NCBI GenBank assembly: GCA_002711995.1
Contig: PASN01000019.1
Location: 62,001-126,000 of the forward strand
Reading direction: 5' to 3'
Source of the DNA: Halobacteriovoraceae bacterium
GTDB lineage: Bacteria > Bdellovibrionota > Bacteriovoracia > Bacteriovoracales > Bacteriovoracaceae
DNA length: 64,000 nt
Shown: in pieces, positions 31,894-61,675 of the stretch
How the letters are laid out: every line of letters starts with the position of its first letter
Numbering within the stretch: the first letter of the stretch is position 1
Position numbers and translations under genes: made by a program
The notes under the pieces: model-generated
What the model was told of the DNA's origin: nothing
Databases searched by the model: none
What the model saw: the letters and a program-made list of their open reading frames with translations, nothing else

Positions 31894-34056
31894 ATGAAAA
31901 ACTTACCAAAGACGAGAAATATTGGGATTTCGGCCCATATTGACTCGGGAAAGACGACACTAACAGAAAGAATTCTCTTCTACTGTGACATGATTCACAA
32001 GATTGAAGACGTTCGTGGCGGCAGTGACGGCGCAAAAATGGACCACATGGAGCTAGAGAAAGAGAAGGGGATTACAATCACTTCAGCGGCTACTACTGTT
32101 CACTGGCATGGTTTTGACAAAAAAGGCATCACTTTTGCTGAAGGTGACGGCAAGTCAATCAAAATCAATATTATCGATACTCCGGGCCACGTTGACTTCA
32201 CAGTTGAAGTTGAGAGATCTCTAAGAGTTCTAGATGGTGCGATTCTAGTTCTTTGTTCTGTTTCTGGTGTTCAGGCACAATCAATTACAGTTGATAGACA
32301 GATGAAAAGATATAACGTTCCAAGGCTTGCTTTCCTTAACAAGATGGACCGTATGGGTGCTGGCGCAGACAAAGGTGCAAGAGAGCTTAAAGAGAAGCTT
32401 CACCTTAACGCTGTTCTTATGCAAATCCCTATTGGTGCTGAGGAAAACTTCGAAGGTGTTGTAGACCTTATCACTAAAGAGGCTTACTACTTTGATGGTT
32501 CAAACGGTGAAAACGTTAGAATTGAAGAGTGTCCAGCTGACCTAGTGGACCTAATGGAAGAGAAAAGAGCAGAGATGCTTGATGAAGTATCTGCATTTGA
32601 CGATGAAATCATGGAAAAATACCTTGAAGGTGAAGAGCCAACTATCGAGGAAATCCACAAGTGTGTTAGAGCTGGTGTAAACTCTCTTGAGTTAGTTCCT
32701 GTTTACATGGGTTCTGCATTTAAGAATAAAGGTGTTCAACCACTACTAAACGCTGTTGCTAGATACCTTCCTTCACCAGTTTCTTGTGTTAAGCCTACTG
32801 GTATCAAAGAAACTAAGGGTGGCGAAGAAAAAATCACTCTTGAGCCAGACTTTGAAAAACCACTTGTTTGTATGGCATTTAAAATTACTGACGAGCAGTT
32901 TGGTCAGTTGACTTACACAAGAGTTTACCAAGGTAAGATTACTAAAGGTGACACTGTTTGGAATACAAGAACTGGTAAAAAGGTTCGTGTAGGTAGAATG
33001 GTTAGAATGAACTCTAACGATAGAGAAAATATTGAAATGGCCGGAGCAGGCGATATTATCGCAATGGTTGGTGTTGACTGTGCTTCTGGTGACACATTTG
33101 TTGGATCTGACGACCTACTTGATATCTCTTGTGAAGGAATGCACGTTCCAATTCCAGTTATCGAGCTTTCCATTAAGGCAAAAGATAAAGATCAGCAGGC
33201 GAAAATGTCTAAAGGTCTTAACAGATTTAGAAAAGAAGATCCTACATTCCACGTTTTCACTGACGAAGAATCTGGTGAGACAAGAATTGCAGGTATGGGT
33301 GAGCTTCACCTTGAAATTTATGTAGAGCGTCTAAAGCGTGAGTACAAAGCTGATGTAGAAGTTGGTGCTCCTCAGGTTAACTACAGAGAGACAATTAGAA
33401 CTGAAGCCGCTTTTGATTACACTCACAAGAAGCAAACTGGTGGTTCTGGTCAGTTTGGTCAAGTTGTTGGTGTTATCAGACCACTTACTGATGACAAGAA
33501 AGAAAGAGAAGATCAAAACTTTAAGTTTAACAACAATATTAAAGGTGGATCAATTCCTTCTGAATTTATTGGTGCTTGTGAAAAAGGTTTTGAAGACATC
33601 ATGGAAAAAGGTCCATTGGCCGCATTCCCACTTATCAACGTTGAAGTTGACCTAAACGACGGTAAGTACCACGATGTTGACTCCTCTGATATGGCGTTTA
33701 GAATTGCATCTCGTCAGGCAATGAGACAAGGTATCTCTAAAGCTGACGCTGTTCTTCTTGAGCCATTCATGCAAGTTCAAGTTGAAACTCCAGATGATTT
33801 CCAAGGTTTCGTAATTGGTGACCTTTCTTCTAGACGTGGTATCATCCAAGGTTCAGAAGCTGGACATGGTGGAGAGACTATTGTTAACGCTCAGGTTCCT
33901 CTATCTGAAATGTTTGGTTACTCAACTGACCTAAGGTCTGGTACAGCTGGTAAAGCGACTTACTCTATGGAATTTGCTGAATACAAAGAGTGTCCATCAA
34001 ACATTCAAGCTGAAGTAATCAAAGCTAGAGAAGAAAAACTTGCTAACGATGATTAA
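31894..34056 (+). CDS. fusA: Elongation factor G of the spd/mitochondrial (EFG1) type
   Basis: EF-G is the translocase GTPase of the ribosome. Motifs are complete: [15 protein letters not shown] (G1), [10 protein letters not shown] (G2), [15 protein letters not shown] (G3), NKMDRMGAG (G4). The N-terminus [16 protein letters not shown] with [13 protein letters not shown] matches mitochondrial EFG1/spdEFG1 rather than standard bacterial EF-G (usually AHIDAGKTTTTERI and MDWMEQE). The 720 residues include a 12-residue insertion before the G3 strand ([12 protein letters not shown]). Codon choice is strongly biased, suggesting high expression. It stands alone, outside any str operon, with its own promoter and a strong terminator. 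Confidence 0.93.
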
Positions 34057-34081
34057 TCAAAAATAAGCATTCACTTGCTAG

Positions 34082-34110
34082 AAGGGGCCTAACAAGGCCC
34101 CTTTTTTTTT
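34082..34110 (+). terminator. Rho-independent terminator of fusA
   Basis: AAGGGGCC and GGCCCCTT pair perfectly around TAACAA, followed by a run of T to 34110. This strong terminator also abuts the 3' end of the convergent secreted-protein gene. Confidence 0.93.
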
Positions 34111-34111
34111 G

Positions 34112-36685
34112 CTATCGAATGTCTTTTGCTCTTAAAAGCCAGTACATAATGTGCATATCAAGCCCTGCAATGTTCCCTCGCTTAATACGGGAGTTTATAT
34201 TTAGGGGAGTGAATGGGTCTCTTTGCCATAGAAAGTCTAAAGAATAATTTCTAAATCGTGGGGGAATGGCCGCAGGGACTTTGTACCTTTTCTCACCACT
34301 AAGTGTGTAAGCGATGGTTAGCTTGTCAGAGTATATCTTTGCGAGTTCCTTTTCATCTTCGGTTGCCATGCCCATATTGTGTGCTCTGTAAAATGCGCCG
34401 TTGTAGTTTTCATGTATCTCCTCTTTCATTGAGTAGAAGTCCAAGTCGATTCCAAAGCTCTGGGCGGTAACATATCTGATTGCGCTGAAATATGGGTTTT
34501 TATGATGTCCTATATAGTGTTCAAAGATTTTTATGCCTTTTGAAAAGTGTCCTTGAAGCTGCTCATCTTCCAGGATGTTCGAGAGAGTCAGATATAGGGT
34601 GTGCTTAAGATTGTAGTTATAGTACTCATCAAGAGGTTCAAGACTTGAAATAAAGTCAAGAAACCAAACCATTTTGGCCAATGGCAGGTACTTAATATAC
34701 TGGGCCTGATAAGTTTCATCTTCAGGAAACATTATCTTTCCCGCCAATAGGTAAGTGAGTTTGTGAAGTCCTATTCCCGCGTAATGGGCAGGTAAGGTTC
34801 TTGGCTCACTTTCATCAAATAGATTGCCAGGGTGATCCTCAAACACTATCCAGTTTGTATGAATCAAGTAGTCTAAAAGGTGTTTAAAAATTCTTTTGGC
34901 CTTGTCCCTGGTGTGCGGGTCATGGACATACATGAAGGTGTTTATGAGTCCTGTCATGACTCCCATATATTGGTCCCTGCTTACACCTTGGTAGCCTTGG
35001 AAACTATGCCAGTATTCACCTTCAATTAGCTTGCTTCTAAATGTTTGAAGTCTACCTTCACGTTCAAGTTGCTCATACCAACGGCTGCTTTCTGGTATAG
35101 CGCTTCTTGATAAAGGCCCAGCTCCATTGACCGTGGCAAGTACATTTATTTTATCCAGGAGAAGCTGTATACGTTCTAGGTCCTGTCCACTCTGGGTCAC
35201 TGAGTATTTTAACGCCATAGAGGTGAGAAAGGTTCCAGTCCAAATGGCGCCGTCCATACCAATGGTTGCTCTATCATACTCCAAGCTATCAAGGTCTAAT
35301 TGTTGGTAGTCCTTCCAAGTAAGCTTGTCTTCATTTCTTAATACTGGATTTTGCAGAGTGGAGTCTGCTAGATGGTGGCGAAACATTTTATCTTCGATCT
35401 TTTGAATTATTTGTTCTTTGTTTTCAACTGGTGCCGAATATGGGGCCAAAACCTCCATCTCTTTCCCGAAAGGGTTTTTGGATGCATTGACAAGTTTTTC
35501 TAAATCTTCTTTTAAATCTTCTTTGAGTGTGTCCGCCACAACTTCTCTAAGTTTTTTTGAAAGAGGGTCAAAGGTTTTCTCTATAGCGCTAATAATTAGA
35601 TTTAGTATGTCATTGCTAAAATCAATGTCGACGGAGCCTTTTACTTTTACTTCATTAGGAATAGTTACCTCAACCGAGCCATCTTCTTGCGGACTAACGT
35701 GGATTAAGTTAGACACTTTTAAGTTTTTAATGGTGACCGAGATATTCGTGGTCTTTCTAAAGTACTTCGTTTGTGCTCTGACTCTAAACTTAACCTTTAA
35801 ATAAATCCCACTTTCTCCGGCGGGGTAGGCAAGCTCAACTGTGTTTCCATCCACTAGGTCAATTCCTGGTGTGGCATCTAGAAGATTGTGTTTAAACTCT
35901 AAAAATTCCAAGACCTGTATGTCATCGTCTTTGGTGTCTGAGATTAAGTCTTGTGCCGCAATATTCACCTGCTTTGTAAGTTCTGTGTTTAGGTCATCCT
36001 CGAAATATAGAATTAACTCTTTAAGATCGTTGTTAAAAACTTCTAAATCTTTCGGGTGGAGAGGCCCTTTTAGAGAATAGGGCCTTGAAGCTCTGGCCTT
36101 ATGAGCGATGCGAGAGTTCTCAAATACAATCTTTGAATGAGTGGAATTTTGATCCGTTATTAAATAATAGTCGTAGCTACTATCGGCCGAAGATCCAATT
36201 TTAGTTTTGCTATCAAACTGTTTCGGGCCTGAGGTTTTGCCGGTGATTCCTTTAGGAGATTCCACTTTTGGCATGGGAATTTTTACCATCAAAGATAGGG
36301 CGGATTTCGCAACCTTATTAAGCTCGTTTATGCGTGAGCCTTCAATCAAAGCAACCAATGGTAGAAGCGGGTTCTTAGAGGACACGGCGACTTTATAAAA
36401 CTTGTTTCCGGAATTGAATTCTGCATCCTCTTTTGAAAAAGCATTTACCAATTCAAAATATATTGGGGTGTAATTATACCCTTCAGTTGCAATTAAAAGT
36501 CTAATCTGGGCATAATCCAGAGCATTGCTGCAGCTTGCATCCAATACTAAACCTTTGCTTTTAAGTCCTAAGGTCTTAGACTTCACAAGGTGCTTCTCCA
36601 CGATAGCCAATGGGACAGAGTAGTCAGGACAACTTGCCCAAAGCTTGGAAATTGAAAAGATTAAGATAAAAAACAATTTATTCAT
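34112..36685 (-). CDS. Large secreted protein of unknown function
   Basis: The ATG at 36685 begins a signal peptide (MNKLFFILIFSISKLWAS); a GTG 21 bp upstream is less likely. The mature protein is about 840 residues. The first third is beta-rich and contains lysine-rich segments; residues near 380-430 are amphipathic helix (LREVVADTLKEDLKEDLEKLV). The C-terminal 400 residues are helical with aromatic pairs, including GVSRDQYMGVMTGLINTFMYV and YSLDFLWQRDPF. This pattern is reminiscent of alpha/alpha-barrel glycan enzymes, but I cannot name a family. It may be periplasmic or secreted to prey (inference). It is monocistronic and ends right at the fusA terminator. Confidence 0.65.
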   Translation of the reverse strand: MNKLFFILIFSISKLWASCPDYSVPLAIVEKHLVKSKTLGLKSKGLVLDASCSNALDYAQIRLLIATEGYNYTPIYFELVNAFSKEDAEFNSGNKFYKVAVSSKNPLLPLVALIEGSRINELNKVAKSALSLMVKIPMPKVESPKGITGKTSGPKQFDSKTKIGSSADSSYDYYLITDQNSTHSKIVFENSRIAHKARASRPYSLKGPLHPKDLEVFNNDLKELILYFEDDLNTELTKQVNIAAQDLISDTKDDDIQVLEFLEFKHNLLDATPGIDLVDGNTVELAYPAGESGIYLKVKFRVRAQTKYFRKTTNISVTIKNLKVSNLIHVSPQEDGSVEVTIPNEVKVKGSVDIDFSNDILNLIISAIEKTFDPLSKKLREVVADTLKEDLKEDLEKLVNASKNPFGKEMEVLAPYSAPVENKEQIIQKIEDKMFRHHLADSTLQNPVLRNEDKLTWKDYQQLDLDSLEYDRATIGMDGAIWTGTFLTSMALKYSVTQSGQDLERIQLLLDKINVLATVNGAGPLSRSAIPESSRWYEQLEREGRLQTFRSKLIEGEYWHSFQGYQGVSRDQYMGVMTGLINTFMYVHDPHTRDKAKRIFKHLLDYLIHTNWIVFEDHPGNLFDESEPRTLPAHYAGIGLHKLTYLLAGKIMFPEDETYQAQYIKYLPLAKMVWFLDFISSLEPLDEYYNYNLKHTLYLTLSNILEDEQLQGHFSKGIKIFEHYIGHHKNPYFSAIRYVTAQSFGIDLDFYSMKEEIHENYNGAFYRAHNMGMATEDEKELAKIYSDKLTIAYTLSGEKRYKVPAAIPPRFRNYSLDFLWQRDPFTPLNINSRIKRGNIAGLDMHIMYWLLRAKDIR

Positions 36686-36818
36686 AAAGAAATATGTAGC
36701 AAGCACACTGCCAGCTGAAACCGACCTAATTTTGATCTGAACTATAAAAAGTGTTTAGAGTTTTTACGGCCGCTAAAACGTCTTATGGCCTTTTTAGTTT
36801 AGTTAAGTTTGACCACAT

Positions 36819-36834
36819 AAAACTTATAAGTTTT
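36819..36834. promoter_or_regulatory. 16-bp perfect palindrome upstream of a LysR gene
   Basis: AAAACTTA and TAAGTTTT abut to a 16-bp perfect palindrome 47 bp before the LysR start at 36882. It lies in the 196-bp spacer between divergent genes, a typical LysR autoregulatory location. Confidence 0.5.
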
Positions 36835-36881
36835 TCTAATAGGTTCTAGACAAATTCTATTGGGCGTGTTTTTATGCATTT

Positions 36882-37778
36882 ATGATTGAATCTTCGCAAT
36901 TACAAGTTCTTATGGCCCTAACTAAGGCCGAAAGCCTCTCTCAGGCGGCTGAGTCTCTTGGTATAACACAGTCTGCCGTAAGTCAGAATATCAAGACCTT
37001 AGAGTCAAAGGTTGGCTTTTCCGTTATCACCCGTCAGGGTAAAAAAATGGTTTTAACGCCTGGAGGGAGAAAGCTAGCCAAGCTTTCAAAAAACTACTCC
37101 AAGCGTTTTGAAGACATGATTAGTGAGATTCAGCAGGAAAAAAACAAAATCATTGGTGGTGTTACCCTTGGCACCATGTTTGGGATAGGAAAAAGCTGGG
37201 TAGCTACGAGACTGATTGATTTCGCTGGTCACTTTTCAGAATTGAACGTTAAGGTTCAGATGGACTATCCAGATAAGCTGATCCGAGAATTTGAAAATAG
37301 AGATATTGATTGCTTGATTCTTCCAAGTCATTTGACTCCAGCGCATTCCGAGTCTGAAATTTTACATAACGAGATGTCCACATTGGTTTTCCCTAAGGGC
37401 CTAAACATCAACAGTGAAACTGGATTGAAAGAAATTATTGAGCAACCTTTGATATTCTTTGAAGAGAAAGATCACCTTTTTTACACCTGGTGCAAACAAA
37501 GGTTTGGACAGGTTCCAAGAGGAGCTTCTCCTCGTCTTGTGGTGAACGCCTTTGGACAGATCCTTCAAGCGGTTAATGAAGGATTAGGTATTGCTGTTGT
37601 TCCGACTCATGTTTTAAGAAGATCTTATTTTAAGAACAAAGTGGGACAGTTAGGAAAAGAGGACTATGTTCAATCGAGCGTTTTCAATTTTATTTATCAC
37701 CCAGAAGATAAGAACAGCCTAAAAATAGATACTCTTTATGATTTCTTGTTAAAAGAAGTCGATAATCTAAATCTTTAA
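36882..37778 (+). CDS. LysR-family transcriptional regulator
   Basis: The 298-residue protein has the LysR helix-turn-helix at residues 18-40 (LSQAAESLGITQSAVSQNI, then KTLESKVG) and an effector-binding domain from about 92. No pathway is obvious from its sequence. It is divergent from the large secreted protein and ends one base before the tRNA nucleotidyltransferase-like gene, so it is probably cotranscribed with that gene. A 16-bp palindrome upstream may be its own operator. Confidence 0.9.
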   Translation: MIESSQLQVLMALTKAESLSQAAESLGITQSAVSQNIKTLESKVGFSVITRQGKKMVLTPGGRKLAKLSKNYSKRFEDMISEIQQEKNKIIGGVTLGTMFGIGKSWVATRLIDFAGHFSELNVKVQMDYPDKLIREFENRDIDCLILPSHLTPAHSESEILHNEMSTLVFPKGLNINSETGLKEIIEQPLIFFEEKDHLFYTWCKQRFGQVPRGASPRLVVNAFGQILQAVNEGLGIAVVPTHVLRRSYFKNKVGQLGKEDYVQSSVFNFIYHPEDKNSLKIDTLYDFLLKEVDNLNL

Positions 37779-38945
37779 ATGAAAGAGCTAGCTCTATTTC
37801 ACTCTAAACTTCCTAAAGATGTTTTAGCCTTTTTAAATAAAGTTAGCGAGCAGGGTTTTAAGTCGGGCATAATTGGTGGATGCACCCGGGACTGGTTGAG
37901 AGAAAAGACTCTTTCTCACGATGTTGATGTTGAACTTAGGCCAACAGAGGATCTTGAGGAAAGGGAGCTTCTTTCAAAATTTAAAAGTCTCATTGAATTG
38001 CTAAGCAAAGACTATAGTGTTTATGAAAAAGGCTATAATGTTCACGAGGTTTCTGTAGGAGAATACAGCTTAGAGCTTGGACTTCCAAGGCTTGAAATTT
38101 TCAATAATACTGTGGGCCATTCAAATTTTACTGCTAAGTTTGTAAGCGATATGGATTACTCCAATGGCTTCAAGAGAAGAGACTTCACTCTAAATGCAAT
38201 TATGTTTGAGTATTACGGCGGCCAGTGGAGATTGGTGGATCCTCTTAATGGAGTTCAAGATTTAAAGCTTGGGCTTTTGAGGGCCTGTGACAATGTGAGT
38301 TTTGTTAAAGATCCTGTCCGCTTTCTAAGGGCGGTGAGGTTTAGTGTTAAGCTTAATTTGGAGATGGAATTGTCTTTAATTGCTCTGCTTAAAAATATGG
38401 AGCTATCTCTTAATTCTCACTATCTAAGATTGGAAACTCAAAAAGGCCAAAAGCCTCTAACCATGCTGTCCGTCTGCTGCGAACTCCGTCCCTCTGTTTT
38501 TCCATTTGAGTTTCTATCAAAGCATCAAATACTTATTGAAGAGTATGAGAGAAGTTTTAGGATGGGGGAGCTCAAGCAACACATCGCTCAGTGCCTTTTT
38601 TTAACATTGCCACAAAGGCAAGCGGTTCTAAAATTTTTAGAGCTGAAACAAAAGTCGATTGTTGAAATAAACCTTAAAGAAATTAACCTTGGTAAAATAA
38701 AGAGCTTAAGTTTGGCAGACCTGTCTAATTTAAGTTGGAGTTCACAAATGCTTCAGCTGATCGCAAAGGCGGGGGAGTTTGATCAAAAAAAACTCGACTG
38801 GATTTTGAAAGAAGAAGGTGTGGAGTTTGGAGTTGACTTTCTTGAGAAGTATGAGGAGCCGAAAATTGAAATTCCTAAAGAGGTGCCAAATAAATTAAAG
38901 AACTATTATCTGCTCCAAGAAAAAACAAAAATCTTAACAAGCTAA
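37779..38945 (+). CDS. Class II tRNA nucleotidyltransferase / poly(A) polymerase-like protein
   Basis: The head domain has all class II signatures: SGIIGGCTRDWLRE, the metal-binding DVDVE, FKRRDFTLNAIMFE, VDPLNGVQDLKLGLLRAC and KDPVRFLRAVRFSVKL. The 388 residues without an HD domain suit an A-adding, CC-adding or CCA-adding enzyme, or poly(A) polymerase; sequence reading alone cannot decide. The C-terminal half is divergent. The ATG immediately follows the LysR stop. A small lipoprotein gene follows 13 bp after the stop. Confidence 0.85.
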   Translation: MKELALFHSKLPKDVLAFLNKVSEQGFKSGIIGGCTRDWLREKTLSHDVDVELRPTEDLEERELLSKFKSLIELLSKDYSVYEKGYNVHEVSVGEYSLELGLPRLEIFNNTVGHSNFTAKFVSDMDYSNGFKRRDFTLNAIMFEYYGGQWRLVDPLNGVQDLKLGLLRACDNVSFVKDPVRFLRAVRFSVKLNLEMELSLIALLKNMELSLNSHYLRLETQKGQKPLTMLSVCCELRPSVFPFEFLSKHQILIEEYERSFRMGELKQHIAQCLFLTLPQRQAVLKFLELKQKSIVEINLKEINLGKIKSLSLADLSNLSWSSQMLQLIAKAGEFDQKKLDWILKEEGVEFGVDFLEKYEEPKIEIPKEVPNKLKNYYLLQEKTKILTS

Positions 38946-53278: not shown

Positions 53279-54979
53279 CTAGGCCAAAGCAATATCAACC
53301 TTTTTATCGCCCTGAAGATTGCTATTTCCGGGGTTGTATCTATTCGGAGAGATCACATTGTGTGGATCAAGCGCACTCTTAATTAGAGAGCATGTTTTCC
53401 AGTGGATGTGATTGGGATCTAGCTTTTCTATTTGTTGATCAATATTTAAACGGTATGGAATGAAACCAAGCTTTCTTCCTTCTTCAAAAAGCTCATCAAT
53501 GCATGCCTTGGCGGCCTCAACAGACTCTGGATCGTTTTTATTGAAAAGAATAGGGATTGTTGAGTCTATACAGTCGTAATGAAGAACTGTAAGTGTAATC
53601 AACGGCTCTACCTTGTGCTTGGAAGCGACTCTTCTAATGAAATTAATATATTCATTCACTTTGTGGTTTTTCATTGGCACCAATGGCGCGTACCAGAGTA
53701 GACCACAATCATCTTTTGATGGGTTTAATTCCCGGTTTAAATCTGGGGACATGTTTGCATTTTTCCAGTAGGCAAGGGGAAGGGCCATCTGTCTAGGAAT
53801 GCCAAGCATGATCCTGTTCCCTTCTTTTACATTTTCGATATTATGTCTAAGCGTTTTTAATAGGCCAAAAGGAAACGCGCTGCTAACCATATCTCCAATT
53901 TTAAAGAGAAGGCTGTTTGAGAATAAAATTAGGCCTAATGGCCTTGAGAGCTTTTTAATCCGTTTTTTTACAACATCCACCACGCACTCATTGCCGTATA
54001 TGGAGCCAACAATGACCCATTCGGGAAGAAGGTTCTTTTTGGTTAAGGATTTGATTTGTTCTTCACTCAACAGCTTTTGATTGTCGGGCCCGTTTGGATT
54101 CTCTCCATTCATTGCTATTAATCGCCTTTTATCCATTAGGTTTATGGCCGGAACAATTCCTTCAAACTCTGAAAGAGTTTCTCTTATGAAGTCCAATGCA
54201 TCATCTAGTTTAGAATGATCGTTAACCTTAATTGCAAAAGAGGTGAAGTTTTTTGGTTTCTTGGCGAGCCTTATTGTTCCCTCTGTAATGATTGCAAAGC
54301 TAGACTGCGTGAATAACCCTTCCATGTAAGGGCCTAGGCCCCATTTAAAAGTATCGTCCACAAACTTTTCATCGGACATGTCCAGGCCCTTTATGGCGGA
54401 GTGATAAATATAATCTTTTTCATCGGCGCCCCAGAGTTCTGGGTTTGGAATAATTCCCCTTAAAGCGTTAACTGCCATGAAGTGGTCAACATGGGGAGTG
54501 AGTCCGTAGCCTCTCTCTATCGCATTCGCTAACACACTAACTGTTGGACCAGCTCCCGTGGCGGGACACATGTATTCCCATCCATTTTCTTCGAGAAAAT
54601 TGTAAAGTTGTTGCTGAGTCACGCCGGGACCTATGTTTACAAGCCCTAAATCCTTGTCCACTGCGACTATTTTATTCATATGGGATAAGTCTAGGACTAC
54701 AACATCTCTGTTATCGCCATGCCCCACACTGCCATAACCCCAGTTTTTTCCTGAACCTATAGGTTGAATAGAAAAGTCGTGGGCAATGGCCAACTTAATA
54801 AGGGACTTTATGTCTTGAGGCTCAGTTAAAGAAATACTCGCGCACAGAACAGGGTGGGATGATATAGTGTTTTTATTAAAGCTAAATTCTGCACTGCTTC
54901 TATCTAAGATTAGATCTGGTGATAGGTGAGGAAAAGAGTCTGTAAGAAGCTTGATTAGTTTATTCATTAACTTTACCAT
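53279..54979 (-). CDS. FAD-linked oxidase of the vanillyl-alcohol oxidase type
   Basis: The 566-residue protein has a PCMH-type FAD-binding domain: IQPIGSGKNWGYGS, the strand VVVLDLSHMNKIVAVDKD, LVNIGPGVTQQQLYNFLEENG and ATGAGPTVSVLANAIERGYG. A cap domain follows and the chain ends DPHNVISPNRYNPGN, as in p-cresol methylhydroxylase/vanillyl-alcohol oxidase relatives. It oxidises a small, probably aromatic or hydroxylated, substrate; which one is unknown. No signal peptide. ATG codons at 54979 and 54967 are both possible. It is paralogous to the gene at 59157 and divergent from the STAS gene. Confidence 0.82.
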   Translation of the reverse strand: MVKLMNKLIKLLTDSFPHLSPDLILDRSSAEFSFNKNTISSHPVLCASISLTEPQDIKSLIKLAIAHDFSIQPIGSGKNWGYGSVGHGDNRDVVVLDLSHMNKIVAVDKDLGLVNIGPGVTQQQLYNFLEENGWEYMCPATGAGPTVSVLANAIERGYGLTPHVDHFMAVNALRGIIPNPELWGADEKDYIYHSAIKGLDMSDEKFVDDTFKWGLGPYMEGLFTQSSFAIITEGTIRLAKKPKNFTSFAIKVNDHSKLDDALDFIRETLSEFEGIVPAINLMDKRRLIAMNGENPNGPDNQKLLSEEQIKSLTKKNLLPEWVIVGSIYGNECVVDVVKKRIKKLSRPLGLILFSNSLLFKIGDMVSSAFPFGLLKTLRHNIENVKEGNRIMLGIPRQMALPLAYWKNANMSPDLNRELNPSKDDCGLLWYAPLVPMKNHKVNEYINFIRRVASKHKVEPLITLTVLHYDCIDSTIPILFNKNDPESVEAAKACIDELFEEGRKLGFIPYRLNIDQQIEKLDPNHIHWKTCSLIKSALDPHNVISPNRYNPGNSNLQGDKKVDIALA

Positions 54980-57284: not shown

Positions 57285-59087
57285 ATGATAAAACTCGAAA
57301 AAATTGATCTTCTATCCATCAGTATTGCAGTATTATTCATAGCTGCTGGAGCGCTATTTAGCTTGGATGAGGAACAAGAGCACTTTCAAAAATCTCAACC
57401 CGTAGCCGAAGTCTCTCAAAAGAAAGGGGAGGTTAAACTAGGCCATTCCAGAACTCTTGTTTGGACAGAGGCAGCCGAAGGATCTCTTCTTGAAGAGGGA
57501 GACAAGGGATACACCAAAACTAATTCTTCTGTTGAACTGCAATTCTCTGATTTTAATATCAATGTCGCACCAAACTCTCTAGTTCTTGTGGAACAAAGCA
57601 ATAATCAAGAATTAGAGTTGAATCTGGTCAAGGGTAGGATCCAGGTATCCAACACCAAGAAAAAAACAAAGTCTAATAAGTCCAAAAGACGCAAAGTCAA
57701 AAAGGTTAGCAAAAAGCTAAATGTTGCAGGAACCAGCGTTGAGCTCTCCAATAAAAATGAAAGTGTGATCACAGTGGAGAATATTGAGAAGAAAGTGTTT
57801 TTCTCCCAGGATAAAGGGGAGAGTACTGTTGGAAACAGTATCAAGCTGACTCGGAATGAATCCTTAAAAAAGGATTTAGAGAAAAAGGCACAGGCCATTT
57901 TAGAAAGACTCAAAGCAGAAGAGTTGAAGAGGCAAAAAGAAATTGCAAAAAAGGAACAGCTAAGAAAGCTTGAAGAAGAGAGACGAAGAAAAGAGATGGA
58001 ACGGCTTGCAGCGCTCGAACTAGAAAGGCAAAAAGAGCTCGAGCGACTGGCCGAAATTGAGAGGAAAAAAGAAGAAGAAAGGCTAAGAAAAGAGGAGCTT
58101 GAAAGGCAGAAGAGGCTAGCTTTAATAGAAAGGAAGAAGCGCCTTGAGCGAGAGAGGGAAAAAAGAAGGCTTGAGCTTGAGAGAAAAAAAGAAGAAGAAA
58201 GACTTAGAAAAGAAGAGCTTGAAAGACAGGAGAGACTCGCGTTAATAGAAAGAGAAAAACGTGAGGAGCGAGAGAGGGAAAGAAGAAGACTTGAGCTTGA
58301 AAGGAAGAAAAAGCTGGCCGCCCAAAAGGAAAGGGAGCGAAAAGAGAGACTTAGAAAAGAGCAGGAAAAGGCAAGGATTGAACAGGAAAGACTCAAGGAA
58401 CTAGAGGAGAAAAGGCTGGCCCTGGCCCAGGCCATAAAAAAGAAAAAAGAGAGAGTTGAAAGAATTGCCAAGCGCAGGGAAAGGTTGGTTCCTGGAACAT
58501 TAAAATTTAACAACATATTCATGAACTATGGCCTTCGAAGCAATGAACTTGACGAAAGCGGTGGAGATTTCAATTTTACCGGAGCTGCATTGGAGCTTGG
58601 TGCCCAAAGTATATGTACAAAGTGTTATAAAGGCCTTGATTACTCGCTTGAGGCATCCCTTGAAATCTTTGAAGTTATTAGCACTGACACTTCAGGAGAT
58701 AATAAGACTCAAAGGCCAGTTGATTTAAACTCAAGCGTCTCTGTGAAGCTCAAGGGAGGACTGCGAGCCATTTTAGGCCTCAAGTACAGCTCGATTCTTA
58801 ATATTGAAAATGATGACCTTAAAGCAGCTTCCAGGGGCAGTCTTCCTTTGGGAATAGGTTATTTTAAAAATACCGAGGACTGGTTTGGCTCCATCTCGTA
58901 TACGGGGGACTACCTTGTAGGGATTAAGAGCTCCAATTTAAACCTCGATGTTGAGTATCGCCTGTCATGTGTATTCATAGAGAGAGAGTGCGGACTATAT
59001 GGGCAGTTTAGAAGTTATAGCTTCTCAGATGGTGATCTGAAATACTCGGGTAATAGGTCCTCTGTAGGCGCCAGGCTGTTTTGGTAA
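57285..59087 (+). CDS. FecR-like domain protein with a very long charged helix and a beta-rich C-terminus
   Basis: The 600-residue protein has an unusual layout. One membrane helix (about 8-27, ISIAVLFIAAGALFSL) leads to a FecR-like beta domain (about 35-185; VSQKKGEVKLG, LEEGDKGYTKTNSSVELQF) interrupted by a Lys/Arg-rich stretch (126-148). Residues 193-401 are an uninterrupted E/R/K-rich helix, about 31 nm if straight, with two 40-residue tandem units. Residues 403-600 are beta-rich, with two cysteine pairs, and end GARLFW, the aromatic ending of outer-membrane barrels. It could span from inner to outer membrane (inference). It follows the SpoIIE gene with no gap. Confidence 0.85.
   Translation: MIKLEKIDLLSISIAVLFIAAGALFSLDEEQEHFQKSQPVAEVSQKKGEVKLGHSRTLVWTEAAEGSLLEEGDKGYTKTNSSVELQFSDFNINVAPNSLVLVEQSNNQELELNLVKGRIQVSNTKKKTKSNKSKRRKVKKVSKKLNVAGTSVELSNKNESVITVENIEKKVFFSQDKGESTVGNSIKLTRNESLKKDLEKKAQAILERLKAEELKRQKEIAKKEQLRKLEEERRRKEMERLAALELERQKELERLAEIERKKEEERLRKEELERQKRLALIERKKRLEREREKRRLELERKKEEERLRKEELERQERLALIEREKREERERERRRLELERKKKLAAQKERERKERLRKEQEKARIEQERLKELEEKRLALAQAIKKKKERVERIAKRRERLVPGTLKFNNIFMNYGLRSNELDESGGDFNFTGAALELGAQSICTKCYKGLDYSLEASLEIFEVISTDTSGDNKTQRPVDLNSSVSVKLKGGLRAILGLKYSSILNIENDDLKAASRGSLPLGIGYFKNTEDWFGSISYTGDYLVGIKSSNLNLDVEYRLSCVFIERECGLYGQFRSYSFSDGDLKYSGNRSSVGARLFW
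58061..58300 (+). repeat. Two tandem 120-bp units in the charged-helix region
   Basis: 58061-58180 and 58181-58300 align without gaps. Each encodes 40 residues beginning ERKKEEERLRKEELERQ and then RLALIER. A partial third unit (KRKK-like) follows. The DNA differs at scattered third positions, so the duplication is not very recent. Confidence 0.85.
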
Positions 59088-59156
59088 CTTAATAAATAAG
59101 TCTCAAAAAACATCTTTATATTCCGATAGGTTGTAAAACTTTATAAGGTGCAACCA

Positions 59157-60689
59157 ATGGAAAAGACTCTTCAAGATTTTTATTTCAAGACATACGTATA
59201 CGAAAATGTCACTAATTACGGCACTAAGAATTTACAAGAAGTAATTCCTGAAGACTTGGAAGAGCTTCAGGAGATAGTTCAAATCGCAATTAGGGACAAC
59301 ACTAGAATCTATCCTGTAAGCACTGGCTTTAATTGGGGGATGGGTTCCAAAATCCCTGTTGATAGAAAAAGTATTGTAATTAACTTATCAAAACTAAACA
59401 AGATTTTAGAATACGACGAGAAAAATGGCGTCGTAGTTTTAGAACCAGGGGTAACCCAGGAACAGCTTTCAGACTTTTTAAAAGAGAAAGGATCTCCCTT
59501 CTACCTTGATGTAACAGGATCCTCCAAGGAGACCAGTGTTGTGGGAAACACCCTTGAAAGAGGTATCTCCTACAACTCTTTGCGAGTGGAAAGTGTTATG
59601 GGGCTTGAGGTTTTAACGGGAAAGGGTGACTTCTTAAAGACTGGAAACTGGCGTTTGGAGAACACAAAGACAAAGCATAGTTATAAGTTTGGCGTTGGCG
59701 CCGATCTAACAGGGCTTTTCTTTCAATCAAATTTTGGGATTGTTACTAAGATGGCCTTTAAGTTAAAAAGGTTTCAAGAGGCCTATTACTCTGTTCAGCT
59801 TAAGTTTAAAAGCTTGGAGGATGTGTCCAATTGCCTTGATGTCTACTCAGAGCTTTTTGAAGAAGGAACCATTAACTCAATATTTCATATTGCCAATACT
59901 GAGCGCGCCCAAGGGGCGGTTGTTCCTTTCATGCGTAAAGTTTTAAAAGAAAATGGGTGCGATCATGGAGAAGAAAGGGCAAAAGACCTTTTCATGAAGG
60001 TTATCAATTCTCCTTGGGTTGCTTCAGGTATTATTTGTGGAAATAATGACGAGGCAAAGTACAAGGTCAAGAGATTAAAAAGAAAGCTCAAGCGGTATGC
60101 CAAGATCGAAATTATGAATGTAAAATTCATAGAAAGAGTTTTTAAAATTTTAAGTCCTTTTAAAAAACTGGGTATATACAATGTTCTTCTTGGCACCAAG
60201 CCTTTTAGATTTTTGTACTTTGGCGAAGCAACAAACGCGGCCTTGGGAAGTGTTCTAAATCACGATACCTTTTTAAAGCATGAGAAGCTAGCTGAGATGG
60301 TGGATGGTGCGGAAAAGGGTTTTTCGTACTGCCTACCGATAACAGACCTATCTAAACAATCATGTTTAGAAATGGTGGAGATTATCAAGACTACCGCTAA
60401 AGAGTATTCTTTGGATCCTTCCATTACACTTAATCCGCTTCTGGCCAACGTTCTTGAAGCGGTGGTAAGTGTGGAATATCCACGAGAAGATTCTAAAAAG
60501 GCGCGGGAGTGTGTGCGCCTTATGCAAGAAAGGTTGAATAGAGAAGGTCACTACAGTTACAGAACTAATATCAAAGACATGGATCTCTATTTTTCTGATA
60601 AAAATTATTTGAACTATCTAAGAGAAGTTAAGAAGGCCTTTGATCCAAATGGCCTTATTTCTCCCGGTAGGTATTTGCCCGAAAGATAA
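59157..60689 (+). CDS. FAD-linked oxidase of the vanillyl-alcohol oxidase type
   Basis: The ATG at 59157 has AAGGTG upstream; the in-frame GTG at 59148 is part of that site. The 510-residue protein has an FAD-binding PCMH domain: IYPVSTGFNWGMGS, SIVINLSKLNKILEYDE, VVVLEPGVTQEQLSDFLKEKG and TSVVGNTLERGISY. It ends AFDPNGLISPGRYLPER. It is a paralogue of the gene at 53279-54979; both lack signal peptides. Substrate unknown, probably a small hydroxylated or aromatic compound. It follows the FecR-like gene by 70 bp and may be cotranscribed. A weak hairpin (60695-60710) follows. Confidence 0.82.
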   Translation: MEKTLQDFYFKTYVYENVTNYGTKNLQEVIPEDLEELQEIVQIAIRDNTRIYPVSTGFNWGMGSKIPVDRKSIVINLSKLNKILEYDEKNGVVVLEPGVTQEQLSDFLKEKGSPFYLDVTGSSKETSVVGNTLERGISYNSLRVESVMGLEVLTGKGDFLKTGNWRLENTKTKHSYKFGVGADLTGLFFQSNFGIVTKMAFKLKRFQEAYYSVQLKFKSLEDVSNCLDVYSELFEEGTINSIFHIANTERAQGAVVPFMRKVLKENGCDHGEERAKDLFMKVINSPWVASGIICGNNDEAKYKVKRLKRKLKRYAKIEIMNVKFIERVFKILSPFKKLGIYNVLLGTKPFRFLYFGEATNAALGSVLNHDTFLKHEKLAEMVDGAEKGFSYCLPITDLSKQSCLEMVEIIKTTAKEYSLDPSITLNPLLANVLEAVVSVEYPREDSKKARECVRLMQERLNREGHYSYRTNIKDMDLYFSDKNYLNYLREVKKAFDPNGLISPGRYLPER

Positions 60690-60760
60690 TTAGCTGCCAT
60701 TGAATTGGCAATCGCTTTTATGTTTTAAAGAGTAGGGCCTAATTGGCAAGGGAGTCCTCA

Positions 60761-61675
60761 TTGGCCGTTAGTTTAAAAAAGAATCTCTTGAAGACAGATC
60801 AAAAAATAGCTTCTCATACTGAGCAGTTTAAGTGTCTTTATACCAGTAGTGCCGCATTGCTTGCGCGCATGAAAGAGTGTGGTTTCAAACTTGAAGCTAG
60901 GGAGGAGCTCTTTCGAATTGTTCATACTCTCAAGGGAAATGTGGGCGCTTTCTATATGGATGATCTAGCAGAGTATCTGCATGAAGTTGAAGCAGAACTT
61001 GCTAGCAAGTCTTATCCTGAAGTTTTAGAAATTATAAACATTGTGGAAAAGACATTTGCGGATGTCATCGCTAGAAATTCATCATACTTAAACCTAAATG
61101 ATTGGAAACCTTCTCTACCTAGTGAAGGATATGAAAGGCCTTCTCGTGCCTTAGTCTTTCTTAGTGACTATGCTCTTAATCTAAGCAAAGAGGCCAATAA
61201 GAAATTAAATCCAATTTCTATAGAGGACTTCGGTGTTATAATAAGAAAAGATTTTTTACAAGAATTTCAGCTCTATGCGACTCATTTAATAGGAAACAGC
61301 ATAGGCCATGGTATTGAAGATGCTCTTGAAATGGAGAGGTTGGGAAAAGAACCACAAGGCAGCATCCACATTTCTTTTAAGGAAAATAAAAAAAATCTTC
61401 TGATCTGCTTTTCCGATGATGGACGAGGCCTTGATTTATCTTTGTTTAAAGGACATTTAGTTAGTCAAAATAATTCAGTTGTTGAAATTCCCAACCACCT
61501 TTTTCAAAATAGGTTGAGTGGAAGCAAACGGATCTCCAAGACAAGTGGAAGAGGTGTGGGAGTTAGTGCTTTTCTTGAATTTATTCATAAGCGTGGGGGC
61601 GAAGTGAAAGTTTTCACAAGCACTGGATCGTTTTGTAGATTTGAAATCAAATTGTTCAACTTTTTCGAAGAATAA
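60761..61675 (+). CDS. Minimal CheA-like protein (HPt plus kinase ATPase domain)
   Basis: The TTG at 60761 sits six bases behind AAGGGAG (60748-60754), so it is preferred to the TTG at 60743. The 304-residue product has an N-terminal HPt domain with His55 in RIVHTLKGNVGAFYMDDL. A CheA-type ATPase domain follows: LYATHLIGNSIGHGIEDAL (N box), FSDDGRGLD (G1) and TSGRGVGVSAFLEFIHKRGGEV (G2). The dimerisation and CheW-like domains of CheA are missing. It may be a compact phosphorelay kinase or act with other partners. No receiver or CheY gene is adjacent. Confidence 0.8.
   Translation: MAVSLKKNLLKTDQKIASHTEQFKCLYTSSAALLARMKECGFKLEAREELFRIVHTLKGNVGAFYMDDLAEYLHEVEAELASKSYPEVLEIINIVEKTFADVIARNSSYLNLNDWKPSLPSEGYERPSRALVFLSDYALNLSKEANKKLNPISIEDFGVIIRKDFLQEFQLYATHLIGNSIGHGIEDALEMERLGKEPQGSIHISFKENKKNLLICFSDDGRGLDLSLFKGHLVSQNNSVVEIPNHLFQNRLSGSKRISKTSGRGVGVSAFLEFIHKRGGEVKVFTSTGSFCRFEIKLFNFFEE

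Follow-up and report, generated by a model that had tools for sequence, protein, structure and literature searches.

Organization of the locus

The window referred to in this work is the whole stretch of DNA that was analysed, 64,000 nucleotides from a Halobacteriovoraceae bacterium with a genome of 3.7 Mb in 23 contigs. Genes for a STAS-type protein, a membrane HAMP-SpoIIE phosphatase and a protein with a FecR domain, a long charged segment and a barrel-like end (here termed the strut protein) were found to follow one another in the same direction (Table 1). The gap between the STAS and SpoIIE genes is a single base, and the ORF of the strut protein begins at the base immediately after the SpoIIE stop codon. 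A preliminary description of this DNA had placed the strut gene directly after membrane SpoIIE and STAS genes, and its account of the gene order, the ORF and the order of the domains agreed with the coordinates, the ORF listing and Pfam. An ORF on the minus strand (57605-58522) was discounted as an incidental result of the repetitive E/R/K codons.

Table 1. Coordinates of the features identified in the window
Feature	Position	Strand	Evidence or remark
STAS-type anti-sigma-antagonist-like protein, 151 aa	55121..55576	+	NSTGIREW, conserved Ser
Membrane HAMP-SpoIIE (PP2C-type) phosphatase, 568 aa	55578..57284	+	Motifs GGDWWG, DATGHG, YTDG and DDVTF present
Putative FecR-helix-barrel strut protein (P0001), 600 aa	57285..59087	+	ORF; Pfam; 103 bits with the module FecR profile
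N-terminal membrane helix, residues 9-27	57309..57365	+	Sequence; uncleaved anchor inferred from family
FecR domain PF04773, residues 77-164	57513..57776	+	Pfam
Putative charged single alpha-helix spacer, residues 193-401	57861..58487	+	Charge patterning
Tandem duplication of 120 bp, 2.1 copies, within the helix	58057..58313	+
Predicted C-terminal outer-membrane beta-barrel domain, residues 403-600	58491..59084	+	Model, structural matches, strand alternation
C-terminal beta-signal SVGARLFW	59061..59084	+	Sequence
Hpt-HATPase (CheA-like) protein, possible kinase arm	60743..61675	+	Module membership not shown

The window meets two criteria of the gene module described below, namely a HAMP-SpoIIE phosphatase beside an anchored FecR protein and a STAS protein with a conserved serine in an NS-x-G motif. 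An oxidoreductase gene is situated between the strut gene and the gene for the Hpt-HATPase protein. Profile searching identified no cognate HATPase kinase in the window, with only a weak match found elsewhere in the genome.

The operon is flanked by two related FAD-binding oxidoreductase genes (53279-54979 on the minus strand and 59148-60689 on the plus strand) that are 26% identical and for which no relative was found in the other module loci. In some relatives (L111, L113, L127) the module lies between the gene for EF-G and a LysR/poly(A)-polymerase gene pair; in the window these genes are located approximately 20 kb away, around an unrelated gene for an 857-aa protein (31894-38945).

FecR domain and inferred N-terminal anchor

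The FecR-like domain put forward in the preliminary description was identified as PF04773 (E 9e-6), with a score of 26.5 bits against a Pfam gathering cut-off of 24. Only about eight residues precede the membrane helix, and a cytoplasmic anti-sigma domain is absent from the protein. There is also no ECF sigma factor gene adjacent to the strut gene, its neighbours being those for SpoIIE and an oxidoreductase.

Examination of the N-termini of 71 FecR proteins of the module showed that an AxA cleavage motif follows the hydrophobic stretch in only two, while an acidic residue stands just before this stretch in 44. We read these N-termini as uncleaved inner-membrane helices, a prediction that supports the inner-membrane anchor previously suggested for the strut protein. 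The protein of the window does possess an AxA-like motif (AGA) after its hydrophobic stretch, and this N-terminus, taken alone, could also be compatible with a cleavable signal peptide. The anchor of the window protein therefore rests on its relatives.

A second FecR protein, with a signal peptide and a beta-rich barrel-like end, is encoded in the same genome (L001, G000:C8, 139-1974). Its gene is located directly behind ExbB-ExbD genes, an arrangement that is conserved in a species of the same genus (L013).

The predicted charged helix and the spacers of related proteins

The segment of 209 residues that follows the FecR domain is 67% charged (57 E, 45 R, 37 K) and lies inside a run of 219 residues without proline or glycine. 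In charge autocorrelation the segment gave strong negative values at i+3 (z -4.6) and at i+4 (z -3.8), and its hydrophobic residues followed no period of 3, 4 or 7. On these grounds the segment has the appearance of a single alpha-helix rather than of a coiled coil, as far as can be judged from its composition and patterning. The coiled-coil reading was rejected on the absence of hydrophobic periodicity, and the SAH criterion (opposite charges at i+3/i+4, no heptad hydrophobics) was met. At 0.15 nm per residue the predicted length of the helix is 31 nm, and the charge patterning agrees with the E/R/K-rich single helix of about this length proposed in the preliminary description. Part of the helix arose through tandem duplication (Table 1).

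This type of spacer is specific to the window protein; its relatives use four to seven Ig/FN3-like modules, recognized from weak Pfam matches to Ig-like families and from repeated aromatic-Trp motifs. Peak charge density in the window protein reaches 48 E/K/R per 60 residues, that of the next member being 34 and the median 20. The spacers of the relatives are 396-717 residues long and fall in length classes despite their divergent sequence, with clusters at 652-717 aa (31 of 46) and 396-488 aa (12 of 46). Taking each Ig/FN3-like module to be about 90 residues and 3.5 nm, which is our own estimate, these clusters would correspond to approximately 25 and 16 nm. It is not claimed that the helix replaced such modules within the genus; the SpoIIE of the window forms a long branch in the SpoIIE tree, and its placement is uncertain.

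The predicted C-terminal barrel

A shared beta-barrel domain of approximately 200 residues was found at the C-terminus of 46 FecR proteins. Modelling of this domain from 45 sequences gave a ten-stranded barrel (pLDDT 95.7, pTM 0.89), and the 50 PDB matches listed for the model were all outer-membrane barrels, with OpcA as the best (E 4e-8, TM 0.72-0.74) and OmpT/Pla also ranking high. That the family domain is an outer-membrane barrel can be held with little doubt. A match of FecA to the family barrel profile, obtained among solved chains, was only at E 0.09 and was not used.

In about five loci (L090, L123, L124, L132, L141) the FecR protein lacks a barrel and a neighbouring gene encodes an exported protein with a barrel-like end. 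These split-off genes have ordinary signal peptides and beta-rich ends; L090 scores strongly against the family barrel profile (38 bits), and L141, L124, L123 and L132 show only weak or marginal similarity. A separate gene appears to supply the barrel in these loci, a prediction that would fit the pattern of fission and fusion expected of interacting parts. Other family members are short FecR proteins without a barrel (e.g. L094, L111).

For the window protein the barrel is less certain. The in/out alternation of residues 403-600 scored 2.38 against 1.52 +/- 0.19 for shuffled sequences, a value reached by none of 2000 shuffles, and the strict beta-signal of the BAM type with which the protein ends was found in only 16 of 1585 ORFs of 150 or more amino acids in the fetched loci. 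Both observations bear out the beta-rich, barrel-like end with an FW terminus that had been noted earlier. Structure prediction of this region, proposed in the preliminary description as a check and here built with an alignment of the family's barrels, gave ten long antiparallel strands in a barrel fold at moderate confidence (pLDDT 69, pTM 0.59), and all 33 PDB matches of the model at E<=1e-3 in Foldseek were outer-membrane barrels. Searches of 129 family genomes gave no relative of the window barrel at E<=0.001, and none of significance was found in the scanned contigs of named genomes. The family barrel profile failed to pick it up, and when aligned to the family it scored only modestly above block-shuffled controls (z 2.7). 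Weak matches, among them BamA-like and SecD-like proteins, were attributed to chance. We consider it likely that residues 403-600 form an outer-membrane barrel; with no close relatives, no match to the family profile and a model of moderate confidence, this barrel is the weak link of the case. Neither of the results that would have refuted the preliminary description, a soluble C-terminal domain or a cytoplasmic protein, is indicated by the data.

Conservation of the gene partnership

Forty loci (L104-L143) were fetched by SpoIIE similarity alone, and in 38 of these a membrane-anchored FecR gene was found directly beside that of SpoIIE; the two loci lacking it (L106, L114) are both cut at contig ends. 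The full set of STAS, SpoIIE and FecR occurs in 39 of the 52 module loci. In most module loci the partner switch is completed by a HATPase, encoded separately or as a fusion with SpoIIE. The exceptions are the window and 18 further loci, a number of them truncated at contig ends, in which no HATPase was found. Based on these gene neighbourhoods, the partnership of FecR and SpoIIE is real and old, and the search for the three-gene order that had been advised returned FecR beside HAMP-SpoIIE throughout the family, usually with STAS and HATPase. The FecR gene is usually divergent from that of SpoIIE; the window, with all three genes in the same direction, is unusual. Named family members, identified by a STAS search, belong mostly to Bacteriovoracaceae / Halobacteriovorax.

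The same type of FecR gene was also found beside genes for HAMP-PAS-Hpt-HATPase (L091, L092) and HAMP-HATPase (L086) proteins, and divergently beside one for a HAMP guanylate/adenylate cyclase (L098, 3505-7080). What is conserved is therefore the sensor half, which suggests that FecR works with this half whatever the output, as far as gene order can indicate.

Genes for two secreted proteins, one of them Gly-rich, were identified near FecR in many relatives (35 and 30 loci; for example L088, 8160-9296 and 9348-11066) and are absent from the window. STAS and SpoIIE genes without FecR were observed in Myxococcales contigs (L206, L222), on which basis the Bdellovibrio-like lineage may have added the FecR arm.

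Proposed mechanism and alternative explanations

The domain order, the character of the helix, the barrel fold of the family and the conserved gene partnership are supported by sequence and modelling. In the mechanism that we propose, the N-terminal helix would stay in the inner membrane with the FecR domain next to it in the periplasm, the rigid charged helix of some 31 nm would cross the periplasm, and the ten-stranded C-terminal barrel would sit in the outer membrane. A change there (damage, altered spacing or a ligand bound to the barrel) would be transmitted along the strut and reach the FecR domain, which would alter the periplasmic/HAMP sensor of the adjacent SpoIIE; SpoIIE would in turn change the phosphorylation of STAS and with it the partner switch. 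We regard such a single-chain strut between the membranes, its FecR end acting on the SpoIIE sensor and STAS partner switching, as probable, with considerable room for doubt. Anchoring in both membranes has good support from sequence; double insertion itself remains inferred in the absence of any experiment, and the same is true of contact with SpoIIE, of the direction in which the signal travels, of its stimulus and of its final target. Of the coupling of the outer membrane to partner-switch signalling proposed in the preliminary description, the conserved position of FecR beside HAMP-SpoIIE was borne out, with the signalling step remaining inferred only. For the family as a whole, chances appear about even that these proteins are an undescribed class of single-chain receptor in Bdellovibrio-like bacteria, in which an inner-membrane helix and a ten-stranded outer-membrane barrel are joined by an exchangeable rod (an Ig/FN3-like chain or SAH) and report the state of the outer membrane or the envelope spacing directly to interchangeable HAMP outputs (phosphatase, kinase, cyclase).

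Were the N-terminus cleaved, the protein would instead sit in the outer membrane by its barrel and extend a long periplasmic helix, capped by a FecR head, to the peptidoglycan or inner membrane, similar to connectors of the outer membrane to the cell wall; it could still touch SpoIIE without being anchored in both membranes. The AGA motif of the window protein is consistent with this, as are the typical signal peptides of its paralogue L001 and of the same-genus counterpart in L013. However, the motif is rare among the module N-termini, most of which keep the acidic residue before the hydrophobic stretch, and it is the split-off barrel genes that, by contrast, carry ordinary signal peptides. 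We consider cleavage unlikely, but it deserves to be kept in view.

It is also conceivable, and less probable again, that the strut serves mechanically, only setting the distance between the membranes or bearing load, and that its adjacency to SpoIIE reflects co-expression and not signalling. The narrow length classes of the family spacers and a long charged helix, as found in structural rods, would suit such a part, but genes of the strut type adjoin HAMP sensors of several output types, and members without the barrel or a long spacer (L094, L111, L113) keep SpoIIE, which points to coupling of FecR to the sensor. Very little weight is given to the remaining possibility, a periplasmic beta-domain on an inner-membrane-anchored helical stalk that binds a partner in the outer membrane or cell wall. 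TolA has the same order of membrane helix, long helix and globular end (PMC12204202), and the model of the window barrel is of moderate confidence only; against this stand the beta-signal, the strand alternation, the best structural matches (outer-membrane barrels only) and the high-confidence barrel of the family.

Comparison with known systems

Should the proposed two-membrane strut be confirmed, it would represent a natural covalent link between the membranes, with helix and beta-barrel in one chain, and would raise the question of how Sec and BAM handle its two ends. With a rod that occurs in two materials and could be lengthened or shortened, it would allow a direct test of whether bacteria measure the width of their periplasm. 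Partner switching would also gain an input from the envelope, in a lineage some of whose members prey on other bacteria and have a life cycle in which the periplasm and outer membrane are central, and the strut could inform the cell of events at its outer membrane.

No description of this protein family was found in the literature searched, and as far as we are aware, without an exhaustive search, no natural protein combines an inner-membrane helix with an outer-membrane beta-barrel. Type IV secretion systems contain a single polypeptide, VirB10/TrbI, that is inserted in both membranes, as is proposed for the strut protein. VirB10 crosses the outer membrane by helices (PMC11845990), which belong to a secretion channel, whereas the strut protein is predicted to use a beta-barrel and is encoded in a signalling locus.

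The FecA-FecR-FecI system resembles the strut in that an outer-membrane barrel and an inner-membrane protein with a FecR domain (PF04773 in the strut) pass a signal across the periplasm. It differs in that the strut has barrel and FecR domain in one chain (in neighbouring genes in the split versions), has almost no cytoplasmic part to act as an anti-sigma domain, and has a HAMP-SpoIIE phosphatase and STAS protein as neighbours in place of an ECF sigma factor.

TolA and TonB share with the strut an N-terminal membrane helix, a middle part that spans the periplasm and a C-terminal domain acting at the outer membrane (PMC12204202). Their middle part can be helical, proline-rich or disordered (PMC12204202), so that related proteins have rods of different materials, as in the strut family. 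In contrast, the strut is predicted to end in a barrel inserted in the membrane rather than in a binding domain, and a FecR domain is added. The window gene list has no TolQ/TolR or ExbB/ExbD genes beside the strut gene, and membership of the TolA family was rejected because neither Pfam nor NCBIfam gave a match.

SlpA of Deinococcus and related connectors of the outer membrane to the cell wall likewise combine a C-terminal outer-membrane barrel and a helical spacer (approximately 29 nm in SlpA) in one chain (PMC9388160). SlpA binds peptidoglycan via SLH domains and has a trimeric coiled-coil spacer and a 30-strand barrel (PMC9388160), unlike the strut, which is predicted to have a charged single helix and to be anchored in the inner membrane. 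Finally, in the Rcs system the state of the outer membrane is sensed at the inner membrane in a manner dependent on the width of the periplasm (PMC5771553). Such sensing is proposed for the strut also, with the differences that RcsF is a separate lipoprotein and that the output of Rcs is a phosphorelay.
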